The position numbers were made by a program, and so were the translations under genes. This document shows positions 21,792 through 62,155 of a stretch of 64,000 nucleotides of DNA, in pieces (position 1 is the stretch's first letter; every line of letters begins with the position of its first letter). The DNA is from Cereibacter johrii (GTDB lineage Bacteria > Pseudomonadota > Alphaproteobacteria > Rhodobacterales > Rhodobacteraceae), in contig NZ_MABH01000122.1 in assembly GCF_001720585.1 (NCBI RefSeq), forward strand, positions 1-64,000, given 5' to 3'. Below the pieces are notes generated by a model. That model was not told the origin of the DNA. It saw only the letters and a program-made list of their open reading frames with translations, and did not search any database.

Positions 21792-22571
21792 ATGACCGCC
21801 GCTCCCAAGACCGTCCGTTCTGTCGAGCGGACCCTGCAGATCCTCGAACTGATGAACCGGGCCGCTGTCGTGCGGGTCCAGTATCTTGCGGAACAGATCG
21901 GGCTGCCCGCACCCACCGTGGTGCGCCTGCTCGAGACGCTGGTGGCCGCCGGTTATGTGCGCAAGATCGGGCGGCAGGCGGGCTATTGCGTGACCGAGAA
22001 GGTCGCGGCGCTCGGCGCGGGGCATCACGGTCTGCCACAGGTCTTCGATGTGGCCCGCGAGGCGGCCGAGGACCTTACACGGCGCACGCTCTGGCCCACG
22101 GCACTGGCGACGCTCGACCTGGATGCGCTGGTGATCCGCTTCAGCACGATCCCCATGAGCCCGCTGTCGCATTACCAGTCAACGATCAATCGCCGCATGA
22201 CCCTGCTCGACTATGCCCATGGCCGCGCCTATCTGGGCTTCTGCCCGACGGAAGAGCGACAGCATCTCGTGGCCCTGCTTCAGCAGACGGCCGGCTCTGC
22301 CGACGAGGCCAGGGCCATCGCGGAGCGGGCGGCGTCCGTCGTGGCCATGACGCGGGCCAGCGGCTTCGGCGAGCGCACGGGCAACATCCAGCCCGAGACC
22401 CATTCCCTCGCCCTGCCCCTGCGGATGGGCGCGAAGATCGTGGGCACGCTGGGCATCACCTATTTCGCCAGGGCAAAGGTCGATGTCTCCGCCTTGAAGA
22501 CGCACCTGCGCGCCGCAGCGGAGGCCTGCACGAACGGGGCGAGCTATCGGGCGCCCGCCTCAAGCGGATAG
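21792..22571 (+). CDS. IclR-family transcriptional regulator
   Basis: 259 residues from the ATG behind GAAGGCCAC. The N-terminal winged helix-turn-helix (SVERTLQILELMNR...VQYLAEQIGLPAPTVVRLLETLVAAGYVRK) and the C-terminal effector domain (from ~residue 75) are both full length. Regulators of this type, such as MhpR and PcaR, commonly respond to aromatic acids or their breakdown products. That fits the catabolic genes that follow. The 3' end overlaps the convergent flavoprotein gene by 28 nt. It is the likely specific activator of the island together with the TetR regulator at 24.2 kb; the effector is unknown. Confidence 0.9.
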   Translation: MTAAPKTVRSVERTLQILELMNRAAVVRVQYLAEQIGLPAPTVVRLLETLVAAGYVRKIGRQAGYCVTEKVAALGAGHHGLPQVFDVAREAAEDLTRRTLWPTALATLDLDALVIRFSTIPMSPLSHYQSTINRRMTLLDYAHGRAYLGFCPTEERQHLVALLQQTAGSADEARAIAERAASVVAMTRASGFGERTGNIQPETHSLALPLRMGAKIVGTLGITYFARAKVDVSALKTHLRAAAEACTNGASYRAPASSG

Positions 22572-23143
22572 ACGGTCCGGGCACGGTCGTCGTCCCTGCC
22601 CGAGGCGAGGATGCGCGGCCTCGCCGTGCGCACATGATCGACATAGGCTCGGGCCGAGGCTGCGACCGCGGCATCATCGCATTCGCGAACGCCGGTCAGG
22701 GTGAAGGGCGGCAGGTAGTGCATCCCGGTGTGCCGCGCCATCAGCTCGAAGGGGACCGTGACCTCGTCGAGCGTCCTGCCATAGCGTCCGTCGGGCTGGT
22801 AATCCCGCCCGTTCGACCCGGTCGAGAGGGCGACGCCGAGGGTCTTCAGCCGGAGCGCGCGGCCTCCCGGACCGTAGGCCCAGCCGCGCGTCAGGATGGC
22901 GATCTGCCAGGCCGAAAGGAGCGGCGGGCAGGAATACCAGGTCAGGGGAAACTGCAGGATGATGCGGTCGTGCGCCTCGAGCAGCCTGCGCTCGGCGGCG
23001 CCGTCTATCCGGCCGTCCGGGTAGAGGGCGGAAAGATCGCGCAGGGTGATGTCCCCGGCGCGGCGCAGGGCCTCGGCCCAGGCGGCGTTGATCCGGCTCC
23101 GGGCCATGTCGGGATGCGCAACGATGACGAGCGTCTTGGTCAT
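22544..23143 (-). CDS. NAD(P)H:quinone oxidoreductase-like flavoprotein (KefF/MdaB family)
   Basis: 199 residues from the ATG at 23143 behind GGAGGAGATC. The flavodoxin-like fold starts with LVIVAHPDMARSRIN. The family-typical stretch DRIILQFPLTWYSCPPLLSAWQIAILTRGWAYGPGG surrounds the flavin and active site, and a second flavin segment is LGVALSTGSNG. Such enzymes reduce quinones with two electrons and could recycle quinones formed from catechols made by this island. It is divergent from the cupin gene, sharing a ~150-bp promoter region, and convergent with the IclR gene. The substrate is inference. Confidence 0.85.
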   Translation of the reverse strand: MTKTLVIVAHPDMARSRINAAWAEALRRAGDITLRDLSALYPDGRIDGAAERRLLEAHDRIILQFPLTWYSCPPLLSAWQIAILTRGWAYGPGGRALRLKTLGVALSTGSNGRDYQPDGRYGRTLDEVTVPFELMARHTGMHYLPPFTLTGVRECDDAAVAASARAYVDHVRTARPRILASGRDDDRARTVYPLEAGAR

Positions 23144-23295
23144 GATCTCCTCCTGCCGGAACGGTGAGGCATGCGAGGGCGGCACGACAAGCCGCGAAAG
23201 GGGGAATTCCACGGTGCGGAACGAAGCCGCATTTCCCGTGCAGCGCCCGCGCGGTCGTGCGACCTCCGGGAGGAGGCCCGAAGGAGGAGACGCCC

Positions 23296-24201
23296 ATGTT
23301 CGACGACAGTGATCCGCGCAAGACGCTAGCGGGCAAGGCAGAGCAGAGCTTCTCCGGCCCCTTCTGCCTTCCGGAGATCGGCCAGTTCGCCGGCGCGGCG
23401 CCGCAGGATGCGGGCCCGGGCTGGCGCGCCTGGACCCTGCGGTCGACGAACCTGGTTCTGCGGCTGGTCGAACTCGACGGCACGGCGGAATTCGCGAGGA
23501 CGGCGCAGCTCGACGAATATATGGTCTTCTCCACCGATCCGGAGATCCGCTTCACGATCGCCACCGCCCGCGGTGCGGTGACGGATCATCCCGGCAATCA
23601 CCTGTTCATCCTTCCGCCCGGCGACAGTCGGGTGCGGATCGACGGCAGGGGCAAGGTGGCGTTTGTCTACACCACGCGCTCTGCCGATCTGGTCGCGGCC
23701 TGCAGCAACCCGTCGGTTGCCGCGAATCCGGTCATCCCGCCGTTCCAGCCGTGGCCGGACCCGGTCGGCGGCTTTCGGCTGCGCGCCTACGATCTCGAGG
23801 TGCCCGACAGTCCGGGGCGCTTCGGACGGCTCTTCCGCTGCACGACGATGATGGTGAACATCCTGCCGCGCTTCACCGCACCGCGGGACCGATCGAAGGT
23901 TTCTCCGCATTACCATGCCAGCTTCGAGCAGATCAGCCTGACGCTCGAGGGCGATTTCGAGCATTTCCTGCGATGGCCCTGGACGCCCGACATGGCCGAG
24001 TGGCTGCCCGATGCGCATATCCGCTGCGCCAGCCCCTCGGTCACGGTGCTGCCGCCGCCGGCGATCCATACGACGCTCTGGGTGTCGGAGGGGGCGCAGA
24101 TCGTGGACATCTTCTCGCCGCCGCGGATGGATTTCTCGCAGAAGGACGGGTGGGTGCTGAACGCCGAGGATTACCCCGTCGCGCGGACCGTCATCGAGTA
24201 G
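23296..24201 (+). CDS. Bicupin-like protein of unknown function
   Basis: 301 residues from an ATG behind AAGGAGGAGA. The N-terminal half (VFSTDPEIRFTIATARG...LFILPPGDSRVRIDGRGKVAFVYTTRS) and the C-terminal half (HYHASFEQISLTLEGDFEHFL...VTVLPPPAIHTTLWVSEG) each look like a cupin barrel. The second half has candidate metal ligands HYH, E and a later H. It lies divergent from the quinone-reductase-like gene and converges on the TetR gene with two nt between stops. Cupins in catabolic islands can be isomerases or ring-cleaving dioxygenases, but I cannot assign a reaction. Confidence 0.7.
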   Translation: MFDDSDPRKTLAGKAEQSFSGPFCLPEIGQFAGAAPQDAGPGWRAWTLRSTNLVLRLVELDGTAEFARTAQLDEYMVFSTDPEIRFTIATARGAVTDHPGNHLFILPPGDSRVRIDGRGKVAFVYTTRSADLVAACSNPSVAANPVIPPFQPWPDPVGGFRLRAYDLEVPDSPGRFGRLFRCTTMMVNILPRFTAPRDRSKVSPHYHASFEQISLTLEGDFEHFLRWPWTPDMAEWLPDAHIRCASPSVTVLPPPAIHTTLWVSEGAQIVDIFSPPRMDFSQKDGWVLNAEDYPVARTVIE

Positions 24202-24202
24202 C

Positions 24203-24946
24203 TCAGTCCGATATGTCGCCCAGCGCCGGCATCGAGGCGATGACGATGGTGTCATGCGCGATCGCGGGCAGAGCGGGCAGCGGGCGGCGCGAGACATCCC
24301 GCGCGGCCGCCCGCGACATGCCGAAGGCCATCAGCACATGCTCCGAGATCTGCTCGGGGTAGTCGCTGACTGTGGTGCCGCTGGTGACCGACACCATGGC
24401 CGAGGCCACCGACCCCATGAGGATGTCGCGCCCGATCTCGGCCGTGGGAATGTGGAACAGCCCTTCGTCCAGGCCGCGCCGGATCGTCACCAGGGCGTTG
24501 TGCCAGACCATCTCGCCGAAAGTGTGCCCCGGCGCGGAGGAATGGATCATGGCCCAGCCCCAGGCGCGGTTCTTTTCAGCCGCGTGCAGATAGTAGCGAA
24601 TGGCGACCGCAGACTGCTCGGCCGCATTCTCCAGCGCCCCGAACATATGGTGCACGGCGCGGTCGAACTCGCCGGTCAACTCTTCCAGCAACTGGTAGCG
24701 CAGCGCTTCGAGATCGCCGAAGTGATTGTAGAACGTGCCGCGGGCCACGCCCGCCGACTTGCAGATGTCCTCGATGCGGACGAAGCGCCCGTTCTCGCGG
24801 CCGTAGCAGTCGAACGCAGCCGCCATGATCGTGTTGCGCGACTTGGCCCGGCGTGCCGCGCCGATCTCGGCGCGCCTGCCGTTCGGTGCCGTGCGATACC
24901 CCATGCGGGCGATGGCCTCGTCCGGTGTCTCGGTGCTCTCTGCCAT
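24203..24946 (-). CDS. TetR-family transcriptional regulator
   Basis: 247 residues from the ATG at 24946; an upstream in-frame ATG at 25030 would add 28 residues of shadow-like composition. The N-terminal helix-turn-helix is clear: KSRNTIMAAAFDCYGRENGRFVRIEDICKSAGVARGTFYNHFGDLEAL. The C-terminal ligand-binding and dimerisation domain (AVHHMFGALENAAEQSAVAIRYYLHAAEKNRAWGW) follows. It is divergent from the catabolic operon, with a dyad at 25061-25089 in the shared intergenic region that is a natural operator candidate. It probably represses the operon until a substrate or CoA-thioester intermediate binds. Confidence 0.88.
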   Translation of the reverse strand: MAESTETPDEAIARMGYRTAPNGRRAEIGAARRAKSRNTIMAAAFDCYGRENGRFVRIEDICKSAGVARGTFYNHFGDLEALRYQLLEELTGEFDRAVHHMFGALENAAEQSAVAIRYYLHAAEKNRAWGWAMIHSSAPGHTFGEMVWHNALVTIRRGLDEGLFHIPTAEIGRDILMGSVASAMVSVTSGTTVSDYPEQISEHVLMAFGMSRAAARDVSRRPLPALPAIAHDTIVIASMPALGDISD

Positions 24947-25060: not shown

Positions 25061-25089
25061 AATTTGTAAAATGACTATTTGTCCAAATT
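25061..25089. promoter_or_regulatory. AT-rich dyad, candidate TetR operator
   Basis: AATTTG (25061-25066) and CAAATT (25084-25089) form inverted half-sites around position 25075, with further symmetric pairs inside. A second overlapping pair, TTGTAA (25064-25069) and TTACAA (25088-25093), has a similar spacing. The site lies in an AT-rich patch between the divergent TetR gene and the catabolic operon. Confidence 0.5.
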
Positions 25090-25387
25090 ACAACCTCGCA
25101 TAGGATCGGGGACAGGGCAGCAGGAGGGCTGCCTTGACTCTGGGCTGGGGAGAGCCCGCAGGGAGGACTTCCGTGACACCAAGACCACAACCGGACTGAC
25201 CGGTGGCATGGCGCCCCGACGCGCCGTGACCTGACCCATTCCCGACCCTCGTACGCGACGTGACGGACGCTTCGGTCCGAACGGTTTCGTCGTGCCCGGT
25301 TCCCGGCGGCGCGCCTCGCGGCTGCCTTGACGTGTCGCCTCTGCGGTGGCCGTCCCAGACAATTTTGCCCGAAGAAAGGATCACATC

Positions 25388-26302
25388 ATGGGGATCAACC
25401 GGATAGACCACGCCGCGGTCCAGGTCGGCGACCTCGGCAAGGCCCTGGCCTGGTACGAGGACGTGCTCGGCCTGACCGTCCTGTCGCGTGACGACACCAC
25501 CGTCCATCTCGCCTGCCGCGGCACGGCCGCCGACATCACGCTGGTCAAGGGCAGGCAGTCGCTGGAGAATTTCACCTTCGGCGTCGACGATCAGGAGGAT
25601 CTGGACCGGGTCGAGAGCATCCTGCGAAAGGAAGGCGTCGCCTCCGAGCGTCTGAACGGCGACAGCCGCCCGGGCGAGGGCGCGACGCTCAAGTTCCACC
25701 TGCCCTCGGGCCACGAGCTGCGGCTCTGCACCGGCGGGGCGGAGCGTCGCGCCGGGATCTCGGACTTCGACGCGCGCGGCAGCCATGTGCCCTGCGACAT
25801 GGATCACATCAACCTGCTGGGCGCGGTCGACCCGGCGGTGATGCGCGATTTCCTGATGATGATCGGCTTCAAGTCATCGCTCAACATTTCGGTCGGCGGG
25901 CAGCTTGCGGGTGTCTGGCTGCGCGGCTCGGCCTACGACCATGACATCGCCTACATGCGGGCCGTGCGTCCCGGAGACCGGCTGCATCATGTGGCTTTCG
26001 CGGTCGAGGACGGCAACCACTATTTCCGCCTCTCCGACCGGCTGATGGACACCGGCCACCGCTGGGAGTTCGGGCCGGGCCGCCACAACGGCGGGCTGGG
26101 CAAGTCCACCGGCTTCGGCACGAACAACTACGCCTATGCCTTCGATCCCTTCGGCAACCGCAACGAGTTCTCCTCGGGCATGGAGCAGTTCGCCGACGAT
26201 ACGCCGCCCCTCGACTGCGCCATCGCGCCGGAGCAGCTGACGGAGGTGATGAACGGCTGGGGCTACGAGATGGCCGAGACCTTCATGACGGTGGGATCAT
26301 GA
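25388..26302 (+). CDS. Type I extradiol (catechol 2,3-) dioxygenase
   Basis: 304 residues, ATG behind GAAAGGATC. Two vicinal-oxygen-chelate modules are present. The C-terminal one carries the complete iron site H140 (DHINLL), H201 (LHHVAF) and E260 (NRNEF). The acid/base set known from XylE-type enzymes is also there: H185 (YDHDIAY), H233 (GRHNGG) and Y250 (YAYAFDP). It should open a catechol between C2 and C3, giving a coloured 2-hydroxy-6-oxo-hexadienoate product. It is the first gene of a run with ATGA-type overlaps, followed by an NTF2-like gene and a hydrolase gene. Substrate specificity within the XylE/HsaC range is not readable. Confidence 0.93.
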   Translation: MGINRIDHAAVQVGDLGKALAWYEDVLGLTVLSRDDTTVHLACRGTAADITLVKGRQSLENFTFGVDDQEDLDRVESILRKEGVASERLNGDSRPGEGATLKFHLPSGHELRLCTGGAERRAGISDFDARGSHVPCDMDHINLLGAVDPAVMRDFLMMIGFKSSLNISVGGQLAGVWLRGSAYDHDIAYMRAVRPGDRLHHVAFAVEDGNHYFRLSDRLMDTGHRWEFGPGRHNGGLGKSTGFGTNNYAYAFDPFGNRNEFSSGMEQFADDTPPLDCAIAPEQLTEVMNGWGYEMAETFMTVGS

Positions 26303-26769
26303 GCCTTCGGCCGCAGGCCTTCCTCGAGGTGCAGGATCTCGTCCTGCGCTTCTGGGCGGTGGTGGACGAGACCCTCGACACCGCCGGTGCCACGCTCTTC
26401 ACCGCCGATGGGGCGCTGGGGATCGAGAGCTTCCGCGCCAAGGGAACGGAAGAGCTGACCCGCTATTTCGCTGCCCGCCGCGCCCTGTCGGCCCAGCGCC
26501 AGCGCCGCACGCGGCACCTCTGCACCAACCTGCGGAGGCTGCCCGGCGACGGGATGCGGGTTGCCGCGACGATCACCGTCTTCTCCGGCTCGGGCGCAAG
26601 CCCCCTGCCGCTGGAGGCCCCGTCCTCGCTTGCGGATTTCACCTTCGACTGCGTCGAGACGCCCGATGGCTGGCGCTTCCGCGACGTGCGCGGCGCCCTG
26701 GTCTTTGCCGGGGCGGACACACCCGATCTGAGGGCCGCCGCGGACGCAGCCAGGGGCCTTCCGGCATGA
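26299..26769 (+). CDS. NTF2-like (SnoaL-type) protein
   Basis: 156 residues; the start codon overlaps the stop of the dioxygenase gene (ATGA), indicating translational coupling. The fold pattern (QDLVLRFWAVVDETLDTAGATLFTADGALGIESFRAKGTEELTRYFAARRAL...RHLCTNLRRLPGDGMRVAATITVF...) is that of a cone-shaped NTF2-like domain. Such proteins serve as small isomerases, dehydratases or accessory subunits. In aromatic pathways they often accompany hydroxylases or hydratases, so a role in processing the ring-cleavage product is possible. No catalytic residues can be named with confidence. Confidence 0.75.
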   Translation: MSLRPQAFLEVQDLVLRFWAVVDETLDTAGATLFTADGALGIESFRAKGTEELTRYFAARRALSAQRQRRTRHLCTNLRRLPGDGMRVAATITVFSGSGASPLPLEAPSSLADFTFDCVETPDGWRFRDVRGALVFAGADTPDLRAAADAARGLPA

Positions 26770-27440
26770 AACGGGTGGCGCTGATCCACGGCTGGGGCGG
26801 ATCGTTCACGGCCACCTGGGAGGCCGATGGCTGGAGCTGTGCCCTGCGTGCGGCGGGCTTCGATCCGGTCGGGGGGACGATCGCGGGCCACGGGCCCGAG
26901 GGCGGGTCGCATGACCCTGCCGACTATGCCGACCTCGCCGGGGATCTTGCGGCGAAGCTCCCCGCGGGGCTCTACGGCGCCATCGGCTTCTCGCTCGGCA
27001 CCAAGCTGCTGCTGGAGCTGGAGGCGCGCAGCCCCGGTAGCCTCGGGCGGCTGGTGCTGGGCGGTATCGGCGACAACATCTTTGCCCCGGAAGCCGCCGG
27101 TCCCGCCCTCGTTGCGGCCCTGCGGGGCGAGACAGCCGACCCTCCGCCGCAGGTCAAGGCCCTTCTGGCCTATGCCGCGAAGAGCGGGAGCGATCCGGCC
27201 TGCCTCGCCGCCCTTCTGGAACGACCCGCCAACCCGGTGCTGACCGAAGATCGGCTCGCCACCGTGAAGGCCCCGATCCTGATCTTCAACAGCCGCGACG
27301 ATGCCGTGGCGCAGCCCGACACGCGCCTCTGCCGGGCGATGCCCCATGCACGCCACCACCTGATCGAGGGCCCCGGCCATGTGGCCCTCACCTCCGATGT
27401 CCGCTTCCGCGAGGCGGCCGTCGCATTCCTGTCCAAGTGA
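26766..27440 (+). CDS. Alpha/beta hydrolase, candidate meta-cleavage product hydrolase
   Basis: 224 residues, ATGA overlap with the preceding gene. The oxyanion-hole HGWGG is at residues 8-12, the nucleophile elbow GFSLG places the catalytic Ser at 76, a candidate acid lies at D178/D179 (NSRDD), and the catalytic His at 205 (GPGHVAL). At 224 residues it is shorter than classical MhpC/HsaD hydrolases (about 285), mainly because the lid region is reduced. It may hydrolyse the C-C bond of the ring-opened product, as the position after an extradiol dioxygenase suggests. An esterase role is the alternative. Confidence 0.85.
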   Translation: MKRVALIHGWGGSFTATWEADGWSCALRAAGFDPVGGTIAGHGPEGGSHDPADYADLAGDLAAKLPAGLYGAIGFSLGTKLLLELEARSPGSLGRLVLGGIGDNIFAPEAAGPALVAALRGETADPPPQVKALLAYAAKSGSDPACLAALLERPANPVLTEDRLATVKAPILIFNSRDDAVAQPDTRLCRAMPHARHHLIEGPGHVALTSDVRFREAAVAFLSK

Positions 27441-27463
27441 CGCCTCCAGGGAGGAGAAACCCC

Positions 27464-28636
27464 ATGTTCGACGATACGACCCCGATGATCGAGCGCGTCC
27501 GCGCCATCCTTCCCCGGATCGCGGCGAATGCCTCGAAGGCGGAGGAGATGCGCGAGGTGCCGAAGGAGAACATCGACCTGCTCAAGAGCACCGGCCTCCA
27601 TCGCGCCTTCCAGCCCAAGGCCTATGGCGGGCTCGAGATGCCGCTGCCGGAGTTCGAGACCTGCATCGCGCTGATTGCCACCGCCTGCGGGTCTACCGCC
27701 TGGGCCTTCTCGCTGCTGGCCGAGCACGCGCACCAGATCGCGCTCTATTCGAAGCAATTGCAGGACGAGATCTGGCAGGACGATCCCGACACGGTCTGCT
27801 CCTCTTCGATCGCCCCCTACGGAAAGGCCGTGGATGTCGAGGGCGGCGTCCGGTTCTCGGGGGAGTTCGGCTGGTCCTCGGGCTGCGATCACGCGCAATG
27901 GGCGATCCTGGGCTTCCTGCGCGACACGCCCGAGGGCGGCAAGGTCTACAGCTTCGCGATCCTTCCGCGCAGCGACTATGAGATCAAGGACACCTGGTTC
28001 ACCGCCGGGATGCGGGGCACCGGCTCGAAGACCCTCGTGGTCAAGGACGCCTTCGTGCCCGAGCACCGGATCGAAACCGTGCCGGCGCTGATGACCCTGA
28101 CCTCGGCGGGCGGCAGCCTCTATCCCCAGAGCACCACCTATCATGTGCCCTTCATCTACGTCTTTGCCAGCTGCTTCTCTGCCGTATCTCTGGGCATCGC
28201 GGAGCGGATGATCCAGCTTTACACCGAGCGGACACAAAGCCGCGTCCGCGCCTATACCGGCGCGAAGGTGAGCCAGTCGATTCCCGCCTGCATGCGTCTT
28301 GCGGAAAGCACGCATCAGGTGGCGGCGGGCCGGGCCTTCCTCGAGAAGACCTGGGAGGACATGCGCGACCACGCCGAGCGCCGCGTCTTTCCGGACGAGA
28401 CCAAGATGGCCTTCTGGCGCACCAATCAGGCCTATGCGGTGAAGATGTTCGTCGCCGCGGTGGACCGGCTGTTCGAAGCGTCCGGCGGCTCGTCGTGGTT
28501 CGACGATGCCGAAGGACAACGCCTGTTCCGCGACGCGCACATGACCGCGGCCCACGCCTACACCGACTATGACATCTGCGCCCAGATCCTCGGGCGGGCG
28601 CTCATGGGGCTGGAGCGGGATCCCTCCCTGTTCTGA
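27464..28636 (+). CDS. Flavin-dependent aromatic monooxygenase, oxygenase component (HsaA/acyl-CoA dehydrogenase fold)
   Basis: 390 residues, start behind GGGAGGAGAAA. The acyl-CoA dehydrogenase-like fold is recognisable from YGGLEMPLPEFETCIALIATACGSTAWAFSLLAEHAHQIALY, the mid beta-domain WSSGCDHAQWAILGF...WFTAGMRGTGSKTLVV, and the C-terminal helical domain ending in DICAQILGRALMGLE. This is the group D two-component monooxygenase family (HsaA, HpaH, TesA2 type). These use reduced flavin supplied by a separate reductase to hydroxylate phenols ortho to the existing hydroxyl. The partner reductase gene follows after a GC-rich hairpin. Together they would make the catechol for the dioxygenase upstream. 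Confidence 0.88.
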   Translation: MFDDTTPMIERVRAILPRIAANASKAEEMREVPKENIDLLKSTGLHRAFQPKAYGGLEMPLPEFETCIALIATACGSTAWAFSLLAEHAHQIALYSKQLQDEIWQDDPDTVCSSSIAPYGKAVDVEGGVRFSGEFGWSSGCDHAQWAILGFLRDTPEGGKVYSFAILPRSDYEIKDTWFTAGMRGTGSKTLVVKDAFVPEHRIETVPALMTLTSAGGSLYPQSTTYHVPFIYVFASCFSAVSLGIAERMIQLYTERTQSRVRAYTGAKVSQSIPACMRLAESTHQVAAGRAFLEKTWEDMRDHAERRVFPDETKMAFWRTNQAYAVKMFVAAVDRLFEASGGSSWFDDAEGQRLFRDAHMTAAHAYTDYDICAQILGRALMGLERDPSLF

Positions 28637-28646
28637 AGCACCCGCC

Positions 28647-28671
28647 GCCCGGCCCCGCCCCCGGGCCGGGC
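28647..28671 (+). terminator. Intercistronic hairpin between oxygenase and reductase genes
   Basis: GCCCGGCCC (28647-28655) pairs with GGGCCGGGC (28663-28671) around a seven-base loop, 11 nt after the stop. Without a T-run, partial termination or mRNA stabilisation is as likely as full termination. Confidence 0.45.
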
Positions 28672-28707
28672 AGCTTCCCCTTGCCTCAACCAACCGCAGA
28701 GGTCCCG

Positions 28708-29226
28708 ATGACCGATATCTTCCCCGCAGCCGAGGGGTTCGATCCGCGTGCCTTCCGCGCCGCCATGGGCTGTTTCGCCACCGGCGTCACCGTCATCACC
28801 GCACAGGCAGACGGCCGGCGCGTGGGTGTCACCGCCAACAGCTTCACCTCGCTGTCGCTGGAGCCGCCGCTGATCCTCTGGAGCCTCCTGAAGGCCTCGT
28901 CCAGCTACCCGGTCTTCGAGGCCGCGAGCCACTTCGCCGTCAACATCCTCGCCCATGACCAGATCGCCCTGTCGAACCGCTTCGCCTGTCGCGCGCAGGA
29001 CAAGTTCGACGGGCTCGAAGTGACCGAGGGCGCGGGCGGTTGCCTGCTTCTGCCGGACACATGTGCCTCGATCCAATGCCTGCGCGAGACCATCCTCGAC
29101 GGCGGCGACCACTGGATCCTGATCGGCCGTGTCCGCGCCTTCGACAGTTCGGACCAGGCACCGCTGCTGTTCCACCGGGGCGCCTATTCCATGGCACGGC
29201 CGCATCCGCAGGTCGCAGCCTCCTGA
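28708..29226 (+). CDS. Flavin reductase (HpaC/HsaB family)
   Basis: 172 residues from MTDIFPAAEG. Family features are the opening FRAAMGCFATGVTVITAQADGRRVGVTANSF, the segment SLEPPLILWSL with the FMN-contacting region, FAVNILAHDQIALSNRFA, and the C-terminal HILIGRV-like stretch (HWILIGRVRAF) with LLFHRGAYS. It reduces FMN or FAD with NAD(P)H and hands the reduced flavin to the monooxygenase encoded just upstream. Size and order match HpaC-type partners in two-component systems. Confidence 0.9.
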   Translation: MTDIFPAAEGFDPRAFRAAMGCFATGVTVITAQADGRRVGVTANSFTSLSLEPPLILWSLLKASSSYPVFEAASHFAVNILAHDQIALSNRFACRAQDKFDGLEVTEGAGGCLLLPDTCASIQCLRETILDGGDHWILIGRVRAFDSSDQAPLLFHRGAYSMARPHPQVAAS

Positions 29227-29262
29227 ACCACCACCGTCAACGACAACAGGGAGGAGACCTGA

Positions 29263-30126
29263 ATGACGAAGACGCGCATCCTTGGGCTCGCGGCAGTCGC
29301 GCTGAGCCTTGCCGCGCCGGCCCAGGCCATCGATGTCGGCCCGGCCGATTACACGATCCTGCCCGGCGGCACCACGCTGGGCATGGTCTACTGGCAGCAC
29401 CTGAGCTCCGACACGCTGCGGCTGGACGGTGCCACGGTGCCGGGTTCGTCCTTCGAGGCCGACGTCGGCATCCTGCGCACGCTGAGCTACTTCGACTTGG
29501 GCGAGACCCCGGCGGTGTTCCATGTCGTCGCGCCCTTTGCCGGCCTCGATGCCGACATAGGCGGGGTCGGGCAGCGCACCAGCGACGGGCTGGGCGACCT
29601 GACGCTCGGCCTGACCGTCTGGCCGGTGCAGCCGGACAGCCCCGAGACCGGCACCACGCTGGGCCTGTCGCTCTTCGCGACGCTGCCCACGGGGGACTAC
29701 GATCCCGCCCGCATGGGTCTTGGCGAGGGCACCTGGACGATCACCCCCCAGATCGGGCTGATCCAAGGCCTCGGCCACGGCTTCTACTTCGACGGCGCGC
29801 TGGACGTCGCCCTGCAGCGCGATCACGACGAGGACGGCGTGAGCCATGAACGCGCGCCGTCTTGGCAGCTTCAGGCCATGCTGCGCAAGCAGTGGGGGCC
29901 CGCCACCTCGCTTGCGGTGGGCTACTCCGGCCAGCGCGGCGGCGCGCAGAGCATCGGCGGCATCGAGACGGGCCTGAAGACCCATCGCGATCAGCTCCGG
30001 ATCTACGGCAGCCACTTCGTCACCCCCACGGTGCAGGTGCAGGGCATGTATGGCCGCGACCTGAAGGTCGAGGGCGGCTTCGAATATGACAGCGTGGCCC
30101 AGATCCGCGTCGTCAAGATGTTCTGA
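29263..30126 (+). CDS. Outer-membrane channel, phenol MetA-pathway (transporter/SphA) family
   Basis: 287 residues behind GGGAGGAGACC. A signal peptide (KTRILGLAAVALSLAAPAQA) precedes a beta-barrel with alternating hydrophobic strands and a terminal phenylalanine (VVKMF), typical of BamA-recognised barrels. The pattern GGVGQRTSDGLGDLTLGLTVWP and LSLFATLPTGDYDP is characteristic of the 'putative MetA-pathway of phenol degradation' family, whose members sit in aromatic-degradation operons. It probably lets the hydrophobic substrate of this pathway cross the outer membrane. Confidence 0.85.
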   Translation: MTKTRILGLAAVALSLAAPAQAIDVGPADYTILPGGTTLGMVYWQHLSSDTLRLDGATVPGSSFEADVGILRTLSYFDLGETPAVFHVVAPFAGLDADIGGVGQRTSDGLGDLTLGLTVWPVQPDSPETGTTLGLSLFATLPTGDYDPARMGLGEGTWTITPQIGLIQGLGHGFYFDGALDVALQRDHDEDGVSHERAPSWQLQAMLRKQWGPATSLAVGYSGQRGGAQSIGGIETGLKTHRDQLRIYGSHFVTPTVQVQGMYGRDLKVEGGFEYDSVAQIRVVKMF

Positions 30127-30131
30127 GACAC

Positions 30132-30160
30132 GCCGGGCCCGGCGCTGCTCCGGGCCCGGC
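30132..30160 (+). terminator. GC hairpin after the outer-membrane channel gene
   Basis: GCCGGGCCCGG (30132-30142) pairs with CCGGGCCCGGC (30150-30160), followed by CCTTTC. It could act as a partial terminator or as a 3'-end stabiliser separating the channel gene from the BKACE and aldolase genes. Confidence 0.5.
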
Positions 30161-30183
30161 CCTTTCAACAAGGCCGTGCCTTC

Positions 30184-31104
30184 ATGAAGAAGACCATCAT
30201 CTCCTGCGCCGTCACGGGCTCGATCCACACGCCCTCCATGTCGCCCCACCTTCCGGTGACCGCCGAGCAGATCGCCGAGAGCGCGATCGGTGCCGCCGAG
30301 GCCGGGGCCGCCATCCTGCACCTGCATGCCCGCGTGCCGGACACCGGCGCGCCCAGTCAGGATCCCGCCCACTATGCCGCGTTCCTGCCGCGCATCCGCG
30401 CCGCGACGGATGCCATCGTGAACATCACCACCGGCGGCGGGCTCGGCATGTCGATGGACGCCCGCATCGCGCCCGCGCTGAAGACCGCGCCGGAGCTCGC
30501 GTCGCTCAACATGGGGTCCTTCAACTTCAACATCTCTGCGGCAGAGAAAGGGTGCCGCGATCCGCAACCGTGGGAGGTCGACTACCTGCGTGGCACCCGT
30601 GACCTCATCATGTCGAACACCTTCGCCCAGATCGAAACGGTGCTGACACGGCTCTCGGCACTGGGCACGCGGTTCGAGTTCGAGTGCTACGACACCGGCC
30701 ATCTGTATAATCTCGCGCATTTCGCGGATCGCGGACTGGTGAAGCCGCCCTTCTTCGTGCAGGCGATCTTCGGCGTGACGGGGGCGCAGGGGACGGATCC
30801 GGAGAACCTCATGCACATGCGCGCGACGGCCGAACGGCTGTTCGGGAACGACCACCTGCTGTCCGTTCTGGGGGCGGGGCGGTCGCAGTTCCCGCTGGTG
30901 ACGATGGGCGCGATCCTGGGCGGGCATGTGCGGGTGGGTCTGGAAGACAACCTCTACATCGCCAGAGGGCAACTGGCAGAGAGCAACGCCCGGATGGTCG
31001 CCAAGGTGCGCCGCATCCTCGAGGAGTTGGGCCACGAGATCGCCACGCCTGACGAGGCGCGCAGGATGCTCGGCACCAAGGGCGCGGGCGAGGTGGCTTT
31101 CTGA
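30184..31104 (+). CDS. BKACE family beta-keto acid cleavage enzyme (DUF849)
   Basis: 306 residues. Family signatures are complete: the zinc-binding HLHAR with PDTGAPSQDP, VNITTGGGLGMS, the LNMGSFNFN stretch, FECYDTGHLYNLAHF, and the C-terminal GGHVRVGLEDNLYIARGQLAESNARMV. BKACE enzymes condense a beta-keto acid with acetyl-CoA and release acetoacetate plus a new CoA ester, as 3-keto-5-aminohexanoate cleavage enzyme does. In this operon it would act on a beta-keto acid left after ring cleavage or side-chain processing, which is unusual for a meta-cleavage pathway. It overlaps the aldolase gene (stop/start TGATG), so the two are co-translated. Confidence 0.92.
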   Translation: MKKTIISCAVTGSIHTPSMSPHLPVTAEQIAESAIGAAEAGAAILHLHARVPDTGAPSQDPAHYAAFLPRIRAATDAIVNITTGGGLGMSMDARIAPALKTAPELASLNMGSFNFNISAAEKGCRDPQPWEVDYLRGTRDLIMSNTFAQIETVLTRLSALGTRFEFECYDTGHLYNLAHFADRGLVKPPFFVQAIFGVTGAQGTDPENLMHMRATAERLFGNDHLLSVLGAGRSQFPLVTMGAILGGHVRVGLEDNLYIARGQLAESNARMVAKVRRILEELGHEIATPDEARRMLGTKGAGEVAF

Positions 31105-31862
31105 TGCCCGGCGATCGCACCGGTTTCCGTGCCCGCCTGCGGGCGCCCGAGCCGATCCTCGGCACCTTCCTGAAGATCCCCTCGACCCAGCCGGCCGAGA
31201 TCCTCGCGACGCTCGGCTTCGACTTCGTCGTGATCGACGAGGAACATGCGCCCTTCAACCCGGAGACCACGGATGCGATCCTGCTGGCCTGTCGGGCGCA
31301 CGGGATGGCCGGGCTGGTGCGCGTGCGCCAACCGGCCGACATTCTGCGGGTGCTCGACTGCGGTGCGGATGGGGTGCTCGTGCCGCATGTGGCATCGCCC
31401 GAGATCGCGCGCGAGATCGTTGCCCTCGCGCGATACAGCGGAGCGCGCGGCCTGTCGCCCACGACCCGCGCCGGCACGTTCGGCGCGACGGATGTCGCGG
31501 AACACATGAGAAGGCAGGATCAACGCTGTGCCGTCATCGCGATGATAGAGGACGCGGAGTGCCTCGACAGGATCGATGCGATCCTCGCCACCGACGGACT
31601 GGACGCGATCTTCATCGGACGGGCGGATCTCGCCGCCAGCATGGGACCGGCTGCCGCAAACGGAGGGATCGAGCGCGCCGTGGATCTTGTCCTCGCCGGC
31701 GCACGGGATGCCGGAATGCCCACCCTGATCCTCAGCTCCGACCGCACCGAAGCGGATCGGTTTCGGTCGCAAGGCGCCACCGGGTTCCTGACCATGTCGG
31801 ATCAGGGCTTCCTCCGAGAACAGGCCGCCCGCATGCGCGACATCTTTTCACGAGAGGTTTGA
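31104..31862 (+). CDS. HpcH/HpaI family class II aldolase
   Basis: 252 residues. Family residues include the catalytic histidine in VIDEEHAPF, RVRQPADILRVLDCGADGVLVPHVAS with the substrate-binding Arg, the metal ligand Glu in MIEDAECLDRIDAIL, and IFIGRADLAASMG with the metal-binding Asp. Such aldolases cleave 4-hydroxy-2-oxo acids to pyruvate (or glyoxylate) and an aldehyde, the last step of meta-cleavage pathways. The start overlaps the BKACE stop. It is the last gene of the operon; 476 bp of non-coding sequence follow. Confidence 0.9.
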   Translation: MPGDRTGFRARLRAPEPILGTFLKIPSTQPAEILATLGFDFVVIDEEHAPFNPETTDAILLACRAHGMAGLVRVRQPADILRVLDCGADGVLVPHVASPEIAREIVALARYSGARGLSPTTRAGTFGATDVAEHMRRQDQRCAVIAMIEDAECLDRIDAILATDGLDAIFIGRADLAASMGPAAANGGIERAVDLVLAGARDAGMPTLILSSDRTEADRFRSQGATGFLTMSDQGFLREQAARMRDIFSREV

Positions 31863-53344: not shown

Positions 53345-53968
53345 CTAGGCGAGAAGGAACTGAGAGCCCACCATGGCAGCCTGGGTTCTGTTCTTGACGT
53401 TCAATTTGGAGCAGATTGAGCGGACATGCATTTTCACAGTCACTTCACTCACGCTGAGGCTTTGACCAATTTCCTTGTTCATCATGCCGTTTATCAGGCA
53501 GCGCAGAACCTCAACTTCCTTCGGTGATAGCCCCTTTTCATCATTGATAGAGGCGCGAGCAGCATTCAGCCGGAAGGCCATAGGTATATAGGTCTCGCCG
53601 GCCAGGACGAAGTTGATTGCATTCACCAGCGAGCGAGCGCTTTGGCTCTTTTCGATGTATCCTGACAATCCACGATCCAATGCGTCATAAATAACACCTG
53701 GAGAAGCGCTACCAGAAAAAAGAAGAATGGGACCGCCCTGGTTCATGTTCTTGATACGGGAAATTGCATCAAGCCCGGGTGTCATGCCTGGCATGATCAG
53801 ATCGAGCAGGATGACGTCGAATGGTCCTTCCGTCTCGATGAGGGTCTCGAGTTCTCCGACAGAGCTGGCCTGCCGTACATCCGCTTCCATCTCGGCCCTC
53901 AGAAAATGGGCCATCACCTCCCGGACAAGGCAGTGGTCATCAGCAATGGCAATTCTTCTCTGCGACAT
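53345..53968 (-). CDS. LuxR/NarL-type response regulator (orphan)
   Basis: 207 residues from the ATG at 53968. Receiver domain with acidic pocket D10-D11, phosphoacceptor D56 (ILLDLIMP), S85 and K107 (YIEKS), then a LuxR-type helix-turn-helix (LSPKEVEVLRCLINGMMNKEIGQSLSVSEVTVKMHVRSICSKLNVKNRTQAAM). It is full length and should be phosphorylatable. No histidine kinase gene is in the window. A paralogue with the same linker (SARSLVNAINFVLAGETYIP) lies at 55272-55973 on the same strand. Local base composition is less GC-rich than the left half of the window. Confidence 0.92.
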   Translation of the reverse strand: MSQRRIAIADDHCLVREVMAHFLRAEMEADVRQASSVGELETLIETEGPFDVILLDLIMPGMTPGLDAISRIKNMNQGGPILLFSGSASPGVIYDALDRGLSGYIEKSQSARSLVNAINFVLAGETYIPMAFRLNAARASINDEKGLSPKEVEVLRCLINGMMNKEIGQSLSVSEVTVKMHVRSICSKLNVKNRTQAAMVGSQFLLA

Positions 53969-55271: not shown

Positions 55272-55973
55272 TCAAACGCTCATGCCACTCCGGACAGCAG
55301 GATTGGATGCGGCACTTTCACTGGTCGCAGGCCGTTTATTGGACTCCACAGTGGTTGCGTAACCGAATTGAGAGGCCACCATCGCGGCCTGGGTCCGATT
55401 CTTGACATTCAGCTTGGCGCAGATCGCGCGGACATGCATCTTTACGGTCACCTCGGTAATCCCGAGCTGCTGAGCGATTTCCTTGTTCATCAATCCGCCG
55501 GTCAGCCCGGTGAGAACCTGGAGTTCCTTCGGCGTCAGCCCCCGCTCATCGGTAGCCTTGCGTCGTGGTGTCAGGCGCAGGAAGGCCGGCAGATAGGTCT
55601 CGCCTGCCAGGATGAAATTGATAGCGTTCACGAGTGATCGGGCACCCTGGGATTTATCGACATAACCTACCGCCCCTTTCTCCAGAGCTTCGATGACGAC
55701 GTTCGGCGCGGCACCGCTGGCAAAGAGAACGACTGGCCGACCTTTGTTCATCTCGACCAAACGTTCAAGCGCCTCAAGCCCGGGCATCATCCCCGGCAGG
55801 AGCAGATCGAGCAAGATCATGTCGACGGGGCCTTGGCCCGTGATCAGATCGTTGAGTTCTTCGACGCTTGCGGCCTCGAGGATCTCTGCGTCCATTTGCG
55901 TTGCAAGGTAGGCGGCGATCACTTCGCGGACGAGACATTGGTTCTCCGCAAGAGCAATCCTTTTCTTCGGCAT
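55272..55973 (-). CDS. LuxR/NarL-type response regulator with atypical receiver
   Basis: 233 residues from the ATG at 55973. Paralogue of the regulator at 53.3 kb over its whole length. The phosphoacceptor D56 (ILLDLLLP) and K107 (YVDKS) are kept, but the acidic pocket D-D is E10-N11 and the conserved Ser/Thr position is A85, so phosphorylation chemistry is probably altered or absent. The LuxR HTH (LTPKELQVLTGLTGGLMNKEIAQQLGITEVTVKMHVRAICAKLNVKNRTQAAM) is intact. A polar ~30-residue C-terminal tail (TTVESNKRPATSESAASNPAVRSGMSV) is extra. No cognate kinase is in the window. Confidence 0.92.
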   Translation of the reverse strand: MPKKRIALAENQCLVREVIAAYLATQMDAEILEAASVEELNDLITGQGPVDMILLDLLLPGMMPGLEALERLVEMNKGRPVVLFASGAAPNVVIEALEKGAVGYVDKSQGARSLVNAINFILAGETYLPAFLRLTPRRKATDERGLTPKELQVLTGLTGGLMNKEIAQQLGITEVTVKMHVRAICAKLNVKNRTQAAMVASQFGYATTVESNKRPATSESAASNPAVRSGMSV

Positions 55974-61669: not shown

Positions 61670-62155
61670 GGGCCAGACTCATTGATTATCAGAGCCAGAA
61701 CAGGACGAGGGCTGCGAGTGCGATAGCGGAGAAGAAGGTGCCCGGGCGGCGGTCGTATTCGGCAGCGACCCGTCGCCAGTCCTTGAGTCGCCTGAACATG
61801 GTCTCAATGCGGTTACGCCTCTTGTCGTATCTCACATCGGTCTTGCACGATTTCCGGCCGGGGATGCAAACCTTCATCCTCTTGTCTTTCAACGCTTCTC
61901 GCAGCCAGTCCGCATCGTAGTCGCGGTCTGCCAGCAACCGGTCCGCCTTCGGCAGGCCGCCCAGCAGCGCCGGCGTAGTCGCTGACCCGTCCAGCGGACA
62001 TGAAGAACCCGATCGGCCACCCCTTCGCATCTCCGAGCCGCGCCCAGAAGCTCTCGTGGCGGGCAGCGTCATCGCCAGCCGCCACAGCTTCACGCTCGCT
62101 CTTGCCGACGCGAGGCGCGGCACCGAGGGTGCGTTCATCATTCGCCGGGCCACCT
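61670..62155 (-). mobile_element. Third, truncated IS427-type IS5 copy
   Basis: The left tip TAGGGCCAGACTCATTGAT matches the tip of the copy at 56251 with one base missing. Minus-strand pieces read AKGWPIGFFMSAGRVSDYAGA, then ADRDYDADWLREALKDKRMKVCIPGRKS...RRNRIETMFRRLKDWRRVA and SAIALAALVLFWL with stops between. The N-terminal third is replaced by unrelated sequence (ERTLGAAPRVGKSEREAVAAGDDAARHESFWARLG) and no right tip was found. Confidence 0.7.

Follow-up and report, generated by a model that had tools for sequence, protein, structure and literature searches.

A conserved Rhodobacterales gene cassette that joins an extradiol ring-opening set to a bicupin, an HpaI-type aldolase and a BKACE: a putative variant of meta-cleavage

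Analysis of a 64,000-nucleotide stretch of Cereibacter johrii contig NZ_MABH01000122.1 (hereafter, the window, to which all positions without a locus prefix refer) revealed a conserved unit of 12 genes in which a predicted extradiol ring-opening set is combined with a beta-keto acid cleavage enzyme (BKACE), an HpaI-type aldolase and an unannotated protein of the bicupin type, and which appears to represent a new variant of aromatic meta-cleavage. A first-pass annotation had named eight genes at 25388–31862, all of which are in place and match their families, but its interval was too short: four upstream genes located on both strands (21792–24946) belong to the unit as well, including the bicupin gene, which had been overlooked. 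These four encode an IclR-type regulator (21792–22571, plus strand; HTH_IclR, 46.8 bits, cut-off 22), matched in 11 of 14 dioxygenase-bearing loci; a KefF-like flavodoxin-fold NAD(P)H oxidoreductase (22544–23143, minus strand; Flavodoxin_2 above cut-off, KefF model 163 bits, under its cut-off of 210); the bicupin (23296–24201, plus strand), which no Pfam or NCBIfam model matches at E 0.001; and a TetR-type regulator divergent from the operon (24203–24946, minus strand; TetR_N and TetR_C_40 above cut-off), the start of which was taken from the annotated copy in locus L005.

The eight genes that follow, all on the plus strand, encode an extradiol ring-cleavage dioxygenase of the VOC type (25388–26302; Glyoxalase, 67 bits, above cut-off); a SnoaL_4/NTF2-like protein (26299–26769; SnoaL_4 family match); a short alpha/beta hydrolase with a GFSLG nucleophile motif (26766–27440; family match); the oxygenase part of a two-component flavin monooxygenase of the HPAH-C2 (p-hydroxyphenylacetate 3-hydroxylase) type (27464–28636; NF045920); its flavin reductase partner (28708–29226; Flavin_Reduct, with 244 bits to the HPAH reductase model, under the cut-off of 340 and over the N-terminal half only); an outer-membrane channel (29263–30126; Phenol_MetA_deg, PF13557, 94 bits); the BKACE (30184–31104; PF05853, 359 bits; NF053538); and an HpcH/HpaI-type pyruvate aldolase (31104–31862), which matches solved aldolases and scores 124–131 bits with HpaI, GarL and related models, all under their cut-offs. 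The overlapping starts reported earlier are present at 26299/26302, 26766/26769 and 31104/31104, the last being the overlap of the aldolase start with the BKACE end.

When the 12 window proteins were compared by tblastn with the 14 dioxygenase-bearing loci, all 12 genes were recovered, in a single order, at seven of them, an agreement that exceeds chance. The seven loci are a Pseudosulfitobacter plasmid (L005), Sagittula marina (L008), Pararhodobacter (L009), Tropicibacter (L010), Roseobacter sp. GAI101 (L011), Salipiger pallidus (L012) and a locus from the window's own genus (L051), with protein identities from 56%, for the truncated channel gene of L009 (just 25% covered), to 98%; the named carriers include Sagittula marina DSM 102235 and Roseobacter sp. 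GAI101. An eighth complete locus is obtained in Gemmobacter serpentinus (G674, contig C26) once L077 is added to L017, which holds five of the 12 genes by itself; genes that read as Mu-like phage genes lie there inside the dioxygenase gene and split the cluster (L017/L076/L077), the last part of the dioxygenase being located beyond them. Less complete versions retain 11 genes (L013 and L014, both lacking the BKACE), 10 genes (L015, without the IclR and KefF-like genes and with the bicupin placed behind the aldolase; L007, in which the bicupin is a fragmented front part and the channel gene is followed by different genes, among them a recombinase by reading of frames), seven genes (L016) or four genes (L006, a Rhodococcus opacus plasmid). 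L019, L020 and L021, which appear to be second records of L012, L013 and L014, were kept out of the counts. At E 1e-60, the dioxygenase occurs in 5 of 292 genomes of the order, representing 3 of 112 genera, and is missing from one of the three genomes of the window's genus (G643); at E 1e-50, a class-wide sample of 385 genomes yielded a single carrier, the window's own genome. Among the plasmid matches listed, the dioxygenase reaches 91% in L005 and 60% in R. opacus, the other 28 standing at 35% or below. The patchy occurrence, together with the plasmid copies, indicates that the cassette has probably spread horizontally.

The monooxygenase, reductase, dioxygenase and hydrolase had originally been filed as the HsaABCD set. 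Like HsaABCD/TesA-type steroid ring cleavage, the cassette unites a two-component monooxygenase, an extradiol dioxygenase and an alpha/beta hydrolase in one operon; nevertheless, we reject membership, because the monooxygenase and the reductase fail the HsaA (312.1 bits, cut-off 450) and HsaB (159.5 bits, cut-off 230) models. HsaC and HsaD models are absent among the listed NCBIfam matches of the cluster proteins, and the lower part of the window cluster consists of the bicupin, HpaI and BKACE. The monooxygenase passes instead the NCBIfam equivalog for the HPAH C2 oxygenase (685.2 bits, cut-off 650), and its best Protein Data Bank (PDB) match is 2jbr. Equivalents of HPAH residues His120, Ser146, Ser171, His396 and Tyr398 are conserved in all 12 aligned cluster copies. 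The position of Arg263, which we take to act at the substrate carboxylate in HPAH, is occupied by isoleucine in 13 of 13 cluster monooxygenases (the 12 aligned plus L051; L077 is left out of this count, and L006 has no copy). The arginine is retained in all three other close relatives (L058, L059 and L060, two of them annotated as HPAH), and a Sphingopyxis relative in L026 has a glutamine there. According to a study of Acinetobacter baumannii HPAH (PMC10816480), the R263D substitution lets the enzyme accept tyramine, and the enzyme is reported to hydroxylate twice and to be able to yield trihydroxyphenyl products. From the replacement of Arg263 by isoleucine in every copy checked, we infer that the side chain of the substrate is uncharged; double hydroxylation would be possible.

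This substitution bears directly on a variant of 4-hydroxyphenylacetate degradation in which homoprotocatechuate would be opened, formate lost hydrolytically and pyruvate plus succinic semialdehyde or acetoacetate released by HpaI. The cassette does resemble the Hpa pathway with A. baumannii-type HPAH in its C2-type oxygenase, its extradiol dioxygenase, for which HpaD is the second-best model (123.5 bits), and its HpaI-type aldolase, and an acetoacetate ligase and a thiolase in the R. opacus locus would suit acetoacetate as a product. It departs from that pathway in the isoleucine found in all 13 copies, in the half-model match of the reductase, in an HpaD score far under the cut-off of 321, in the lack of an HpaE above cut-off in five of five cluster-bearing genomes and in the hydrolase, bicupin and BKACE found instead. 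The BKACE would, moreover, be futile on acetoacetate. We consider this variant quite improbable, and 4-hydroxyphenylacetate as the sole substrate is rejected on the loss of Arg263.

The dioxygenase falls under the cut-off of every listed named model, catechol 2,3-dioxygenase being the best (140 bits against 320). The full active site ascribed to it on first inspection holds up, in that six candidate metal and acid–base residues, His140, His185, His201, His233, Tyr250 and Glu260, are invariant in 13 sequences, with roles that we presume by analogy with XylE/HPCD. The same is true of the hydrolase (224 residues), in which Ser76, Asp179 and His205 are invariant in 13 sequences; a PDB profile search places HsaD first (E 1.6e-10, residues 3–110), with BphD among the best solved relatives, and the protein is a candidate C–C hydrolase or lactonase.

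The window BKACE passes the NF053538 (3,5-dioxohexanoate-type) equivalog (471.9 bits, cut-off 430). Its closest solved chains are 3e02, 3e49 and 8rio. The last of these (357 bits) is Paracoccus denitrificans BKACE15, which is nearest among the solved relatives for which we found reported activities and has an IHTPSMSP segment in common with the window enzyme. As described in PMC11961710, BKACE15 takes 3-oxohexanoate, 3-oxopentanoate and 3,5-dioxohexanoate, and the authors state that its role is unknown and that its genomic context is aromatic. The equivalog match favours a flavonoid/chromone or polyketide-phenol route resembling the Fde (naringenin) and Ifc (isoflavone) pathways, whereby the A-ring would be opened to a 3,5-dioxo acid or hydroxypyrone, the hydrolase would serve as a lactonase and the BKACE would cleave the dioxo acid. 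The Ifc cluster (PMC11069340) includes a glyoxalase-type dioxygenase, an alpha/beta hydrolase and cupins, one of which acts after ring opening, and IfcD acts on a hydroxypyranone. By contrast, IfcA is a group A monooxygenase and the window enzyme an HPAH-type one, the Ifc alpha/beta hydrolase could be disrupted without effect, and no BKACE features in the results and discussion of that account (PMC11069340), which leaves such a route very unlikely.

The BKACE could also be a passenger from another pathway, attached to plain meta-cleavage of phenol or alkylphenols with hydrolytic release of formate. L013 and L014, which keep the other 11 genes without it, are consistent with this possibility, as are the acyl-CoA genes that neighbour the BKACE in four of six BKACE-centred regions; the six regions gave no pointer to the substrate. 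The gene is retained between the channel and aldolase genes in 10 of 15 cases (window, L005, L008–L012, L015, L017/L077 and L051), however, and in the window it runs into the start of the aldolase gene. We give the passenger explanation a slim chance, and in its pure form it is rejected on this retention.

The lower pathway of meta-cleavage is commonly depicted as a single set, consisting of a hydratase, an aldolase and an acylating aldehyde dehydrogenase. The first-pass annotation held that this set has been replaced here by the BKACE and an aldolase joined to the ring-cleavage genes, and the genome searches agree: in none of five cluster-bearing genomes did DmpE hydratase (best 22 bits against 409), DmpG aldolase (best 76 against 286) or HpaE (best 504 against 638) rise above cut-off, although no control genome passed for DmpE or DmpG either, and 2 of 14 control genomes passed for HpaE. 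With all three below cut-off in the five genomes, the idea of a classical lower pathway encoded outside the cluster was rejected, and another enzyme set must complete the pathway, the candidates for the lower steps being the bicupin, the SnoaL protein and HpaI. The aldolase fails the HpaI equivalog (4-hydroxy-2-oxoheptanedioate aldolase; 124.3 bits, cut-off 368.8), but its superfamily membership is clear. For the SnoaL protein, a model with a predicted local distance difference test score (pLDDT) of 86.7 has LinA dehydrochlorinases among its Foldseek matches, together with a protein resembling ketosteroid isomerase; it is possibly a dehydratase, hydratase or isomerase, and a role in hydration or isomerization would fit the model without being proven by it.

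The bicupin family shows just a weak sequence match to single cupins, and no Pfam family is matched by more than one of its 19 members, even at E 0.1. An AlphaFold2 model built from 10 sequences (pLDDT 77, predicted template modelling score 0.81, moderate confidence) gave 255 PDB matches at E ≤0.001, headed by the bicupins quercetin dioxygenase YxaG and oxalate decarboxylase OxdC, with template modelling scores of ~0.5. As modelled, the unannotated protein is a bicupin composed of two cupin barrels with a metal-binding motif. The HxHxxxE...H set, His206, His208, Glu212 and His259 in the numbering of alignment A1, is invariant in the 19 bicupins and is probably the metal site, the residues presumably having the roles familiar from cupins in general.

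To place the bicupin in a broader context, we counted 20 bicupin loci, none of the window type, of which 16 derive from plasmid records, two from G189 and one each from G203 and G673 (27 plasmid records match the bicupin and 17 were read, namely the 16 counted and the window-type L005; L030, a short contig on which HpaI adjoins the bicupin, was left out). An HpaI-type aldolase is found within the stretch read in 18 of the 20 and, in 14, lies no more than 1.4 kb away, centre to centre. In seven, a BKACE is located within ~8 kb of the bicupin: those of L026, L040 and L075 are 55–61% identical to the window copy and those of L023, L044, L048 and L050 34–38%. In a Microvirga locus (L022), the bicupin is neighboured by CoA-transferase subunits A and B, both above cut-off. 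On the R. opacus G13 plasmid (L006:8176–10944, minus strand), an HpaI-type aldolase and an acetoacetyl-CoA synthetase occupy one uninterrupted frame, possibly encoding a fusion protein; the acetoacetate-CoA ligase part scores 795 bits (cut-off 521), and a thiolase and a crotonase are encoded alongside. A beta-keto-acid enzyme is thus present in nine of the 20 loci (BKACE in seven, CoA-transferase in one, ligase in frame with HpaI in one), the three kinds being unrelated to one another, leaving uncounted the partial CoA-transferase matches of L027, a 24% ligase match in L041 and a BKACE in the pca operon of L024, 8.4 kb away. Taking the number of BKACE genes in a genome as three, as found in each of G000, G189 and G203 (G474, G539 and G674 have three, two and four matches, respectively), the chance of finding a BKACE that close is ~1.3% per locus, and the binomial probability for 6 of 19 loci with a BKACE is ~1e-7, a value that ignores relatedness and depends on an 8 kb limit set after seeing the data.

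The window's dioxygenase and hydrolase were unmatched by tblastn in all seven loci that combine a BKACE with the bicupin; L026 carries an annotated bphC and an HPAH-type relative, and no dioxygenase was seen in the other six (L023, L040, L044, L048, L050 and L075, four of them unannotated). Because BKACE loci occur without matches to the window's ring-opening enzymes, the BKACE appears to be linked to the bicupin/HpaI pair rather than to ring cleavage, and its position near this pair in the six loci in which no dioxygenase was seen suggests that the aldolase branch makes the beta-keto acid. Of the earlier proposal that a phenol with a keto side chain yields a beta-keto acid, the product is favoured by genomic context, but not the side chain as its source. 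In that route, a keto group next to the cleavage site would allow the hydrolase to free the beta-keto acid for the BKACE, and 2-hydroxypentadienoate would pass through the bicupin or SnoaL protein and HpaI to pyruvate and acetaldehyde. Although the best solved relatives found for the hydrolase include HsaD and BphD, the BKACE gene lies inside the operon and the bicupin or SnoaL protein could stand in for the DmpE that is under cut-off in the five genomes, the six loci, the in-frame joining of HpaI with a beta-keto-acid ligase in L006 and the lack of an acylating aldehyde dehydrogenase among the 12 genes make the keto side chain unlikely.

L040 is annotated with an IclR regulator, DUF6282, TRAP genes and a KefF-type NAD(P)H oxidoreductase, and L075 contains the same set by reading of frames; because these loci hold the same core set, the window cluster looks like a ring-opening set joined onto the core of an L040/L075-type module. 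The ring-cleavage cluster of L016 lacks the bicupin, HpaI and BKACE, and the same genome has all three within 7 kb elsewhere (L075). A cluster of HpaI, bicupin and DUF6282 genes recurs in L022, L025, L040, L041, L043 and L047 (annotated) and in L048, L049 and L075 (by reading), in many cases accompanied by an IclR regulator, a TRAP transporter and a reductase whose fold differs between loci. It is conceivable, if on balance doubtful, that bacteria share an undescribed module in which a metal-dependent bicupin and an HpaI aldolase work with one of several exchangeable partners for beta-keto acids (a BKACE, a CoA-transferase or an aldolase-fused ligase), so that hydroxy-oxo acids with a double bond yield pyruvate together with a beta-keto acid; elsewhere, the module would process imported acids (TRAP and DUF6282), whereas in Rhodobacterales and a Rhodococcus it would be wired to an extradiol set as a new exit from meta-cleavage.

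From the gene content, conservation, family matches and context described above, we infer a substrate, a set of reactions and their order. The two-component monooxygenase would place one or two ortho hydroxyls on a phenol whose para side chain, if any, is not acidic, yielding a catechol or pyrogallol, the ring of which would be opened by the VOC extradiol dioxygenase. The short alpha/beta hydrolase may then cleave the ring-fission product or its lactone, and tautomerization or hydration by the bicupin and/or the SnoaL protein would prepare the substrate of the HpaI-type aldolase, which would release pyruvate and a beta-keto acid, R-CO-CH2-COOH; finally, the BKACE would convert the latter, with acetyl-CoA, into R-CO-CoA and acetoacetate. 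The channel would mediate substrate uptake, the KefF-like reductase may hold quinones reduced, and TetR and IclR would provide regulation. We advance this overall scheme, from a phenol through ring fission to pyruvate, a beta-keto acid and BKACE products, as a tentative reading that falls a little short of being probable. If the beta-keto acid comes from the aldolase, this enzyme would act on 4-hydroxy-4-R-2-oxoadipate, formed from 4-R-2-hydroxymuconate; the best-fitting chemistry, in which a 5-R-pyrogallol gives 4-R-2-hydroxymuconate and, upon hydration, the oxoadipate that is split, is itself rather unlikely.

Several observations weigh against this scheme. HpaI-type aldolases usually make aldehydes; it is in other aldolase families that tertiary alcohols are known to be split with release of a keto acid. 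No HpaI match was obtained in two of the 20 bicupin loci, L028 and L046, the former holding instead an RraA-annotated gene, which we take to represent another pyruvate-aldolase family. By uniform tblastn, 11 of the 20 have no full BKACE, CoA-transferase or acetoacetate ligase inside the limit, and the seven BKACEs fall into two subgroups, the second comprising L044 and the copies of L023, L048 and L050, which are 55–67% identical to it. A second bicupin on contig C49 of the L007 genome, known from coordinates only and uncounted, has an HpaI gene 4.5 kb away and no BKACE on the contig. The BKACE is dispensable, as L013 and L014 keep the cluster without it and their apparent genomes, G495 and G404, contain none at E 1e-40; it would also be futile if the product were acetoacetate, so that R should not be methyl. 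No positive control backs the DmpE and DmpG negatives, the function ascribed to Arg263 comes from engineering work rather than from an examined structure, and the R. opacus locus has no monooxygenase beside its dioxygenase. Tetrahydrofolate genes and, by reading, a LigM-like O-demethylase are located ~7 kb off in the latter locus; they may fit a methoxylated substrate or perhaps be unrelated.

Further features were recognized around the cassette. A conserved AT-rich motif, AAAATGACnATTTG (25068–25081, no strand assigned), lies between the TetR and dioxygenase genes in 12 of 14 loci including the window, being absent from L015 and L016, and is a candidate TetR operator or promoter element. Upstream of the dioxygenase and downstream of predicted hairpins, an eight-codon leader open reading frame with a GTG start and a Shine–Dalgarno sequence (25173–25199, plus strand) encodes MTPRPQPD. 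In 11 of 14 loci, the window among them, the frame has this precise length of eight codons; its peptide is variable, with 6 of the 11 copies ending in RPG or PPG, and the leader region has no Rfam match. A role as a translational attenuator is possible. Downstream of the conserved unit and outside it, reading of frames identifies a FecI/FecR-like pair and a TonB-type receptor. The G+C content drops from ~0.69 to 0.54–0.63 at ~42000–64000, where glycosyltransferase and polysaccharide genes and two similar response regulators (53345–53968 and 55272–55973) can be read, as can an IS5-like remnant at 61689–62141. In a different genome, the BKACE at G539 C1:290317–291231 (L054) contains an in-frame TAG in one match and none in a shorter match.

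The proposed sequence of lactonase, tautomerase or hydratase and pyruvate aldolase would follow the logic of LigI, LigU, LigJ and LigK in protocatechuate 4,5-cleavage; the window enzymes belong to other families, however, and would release a beta-keto acid that is not oxaloacetate. The window BKACE belongs to the same Pfam family as BKACE15 and the 3-oxoadipate BKACE, but lies in an extradiol rather than an intradiol cluster; the pca operon of L024 includes a BKACE gene, and the association of BKACE with beta-ketoadipate ring cleavage has already been discussed (PMC6449761). Similarly, a report on the Clostridium phloroglucinol pathway (PMC10470551) describes a triacetate acetoacetate-lyase of the BKACE family that cleaves phenol-derived 3,5-dioxohexanoate, and thus BKACE-family cleavage downstream of a phenol, although that pathway is anaerobic and reductive and has no dioxygenase. 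Accordingly, BKACE in aromatic catabolism is not new per se, and the cluster is best classed as a putative new variant of meta-cleavage. Titles and abstract openings of the open-licence literature yielded no description of the cluster, which is weak evidence of absence, and no paper on an extradiol version with BKACE or on this bicupin family was found in that literature. In the carriers of the cassette, the usual lower pathway of meta-cleavage looks replaced, and the bicupin, likely one of the replacements, stands outside Pfam and NCBIfam models. The cluster may also provide a physiological setting for BKACE15-like enzymes, and the presence of so compact a cassette in named strains makes its substrate and pathway directly testable.

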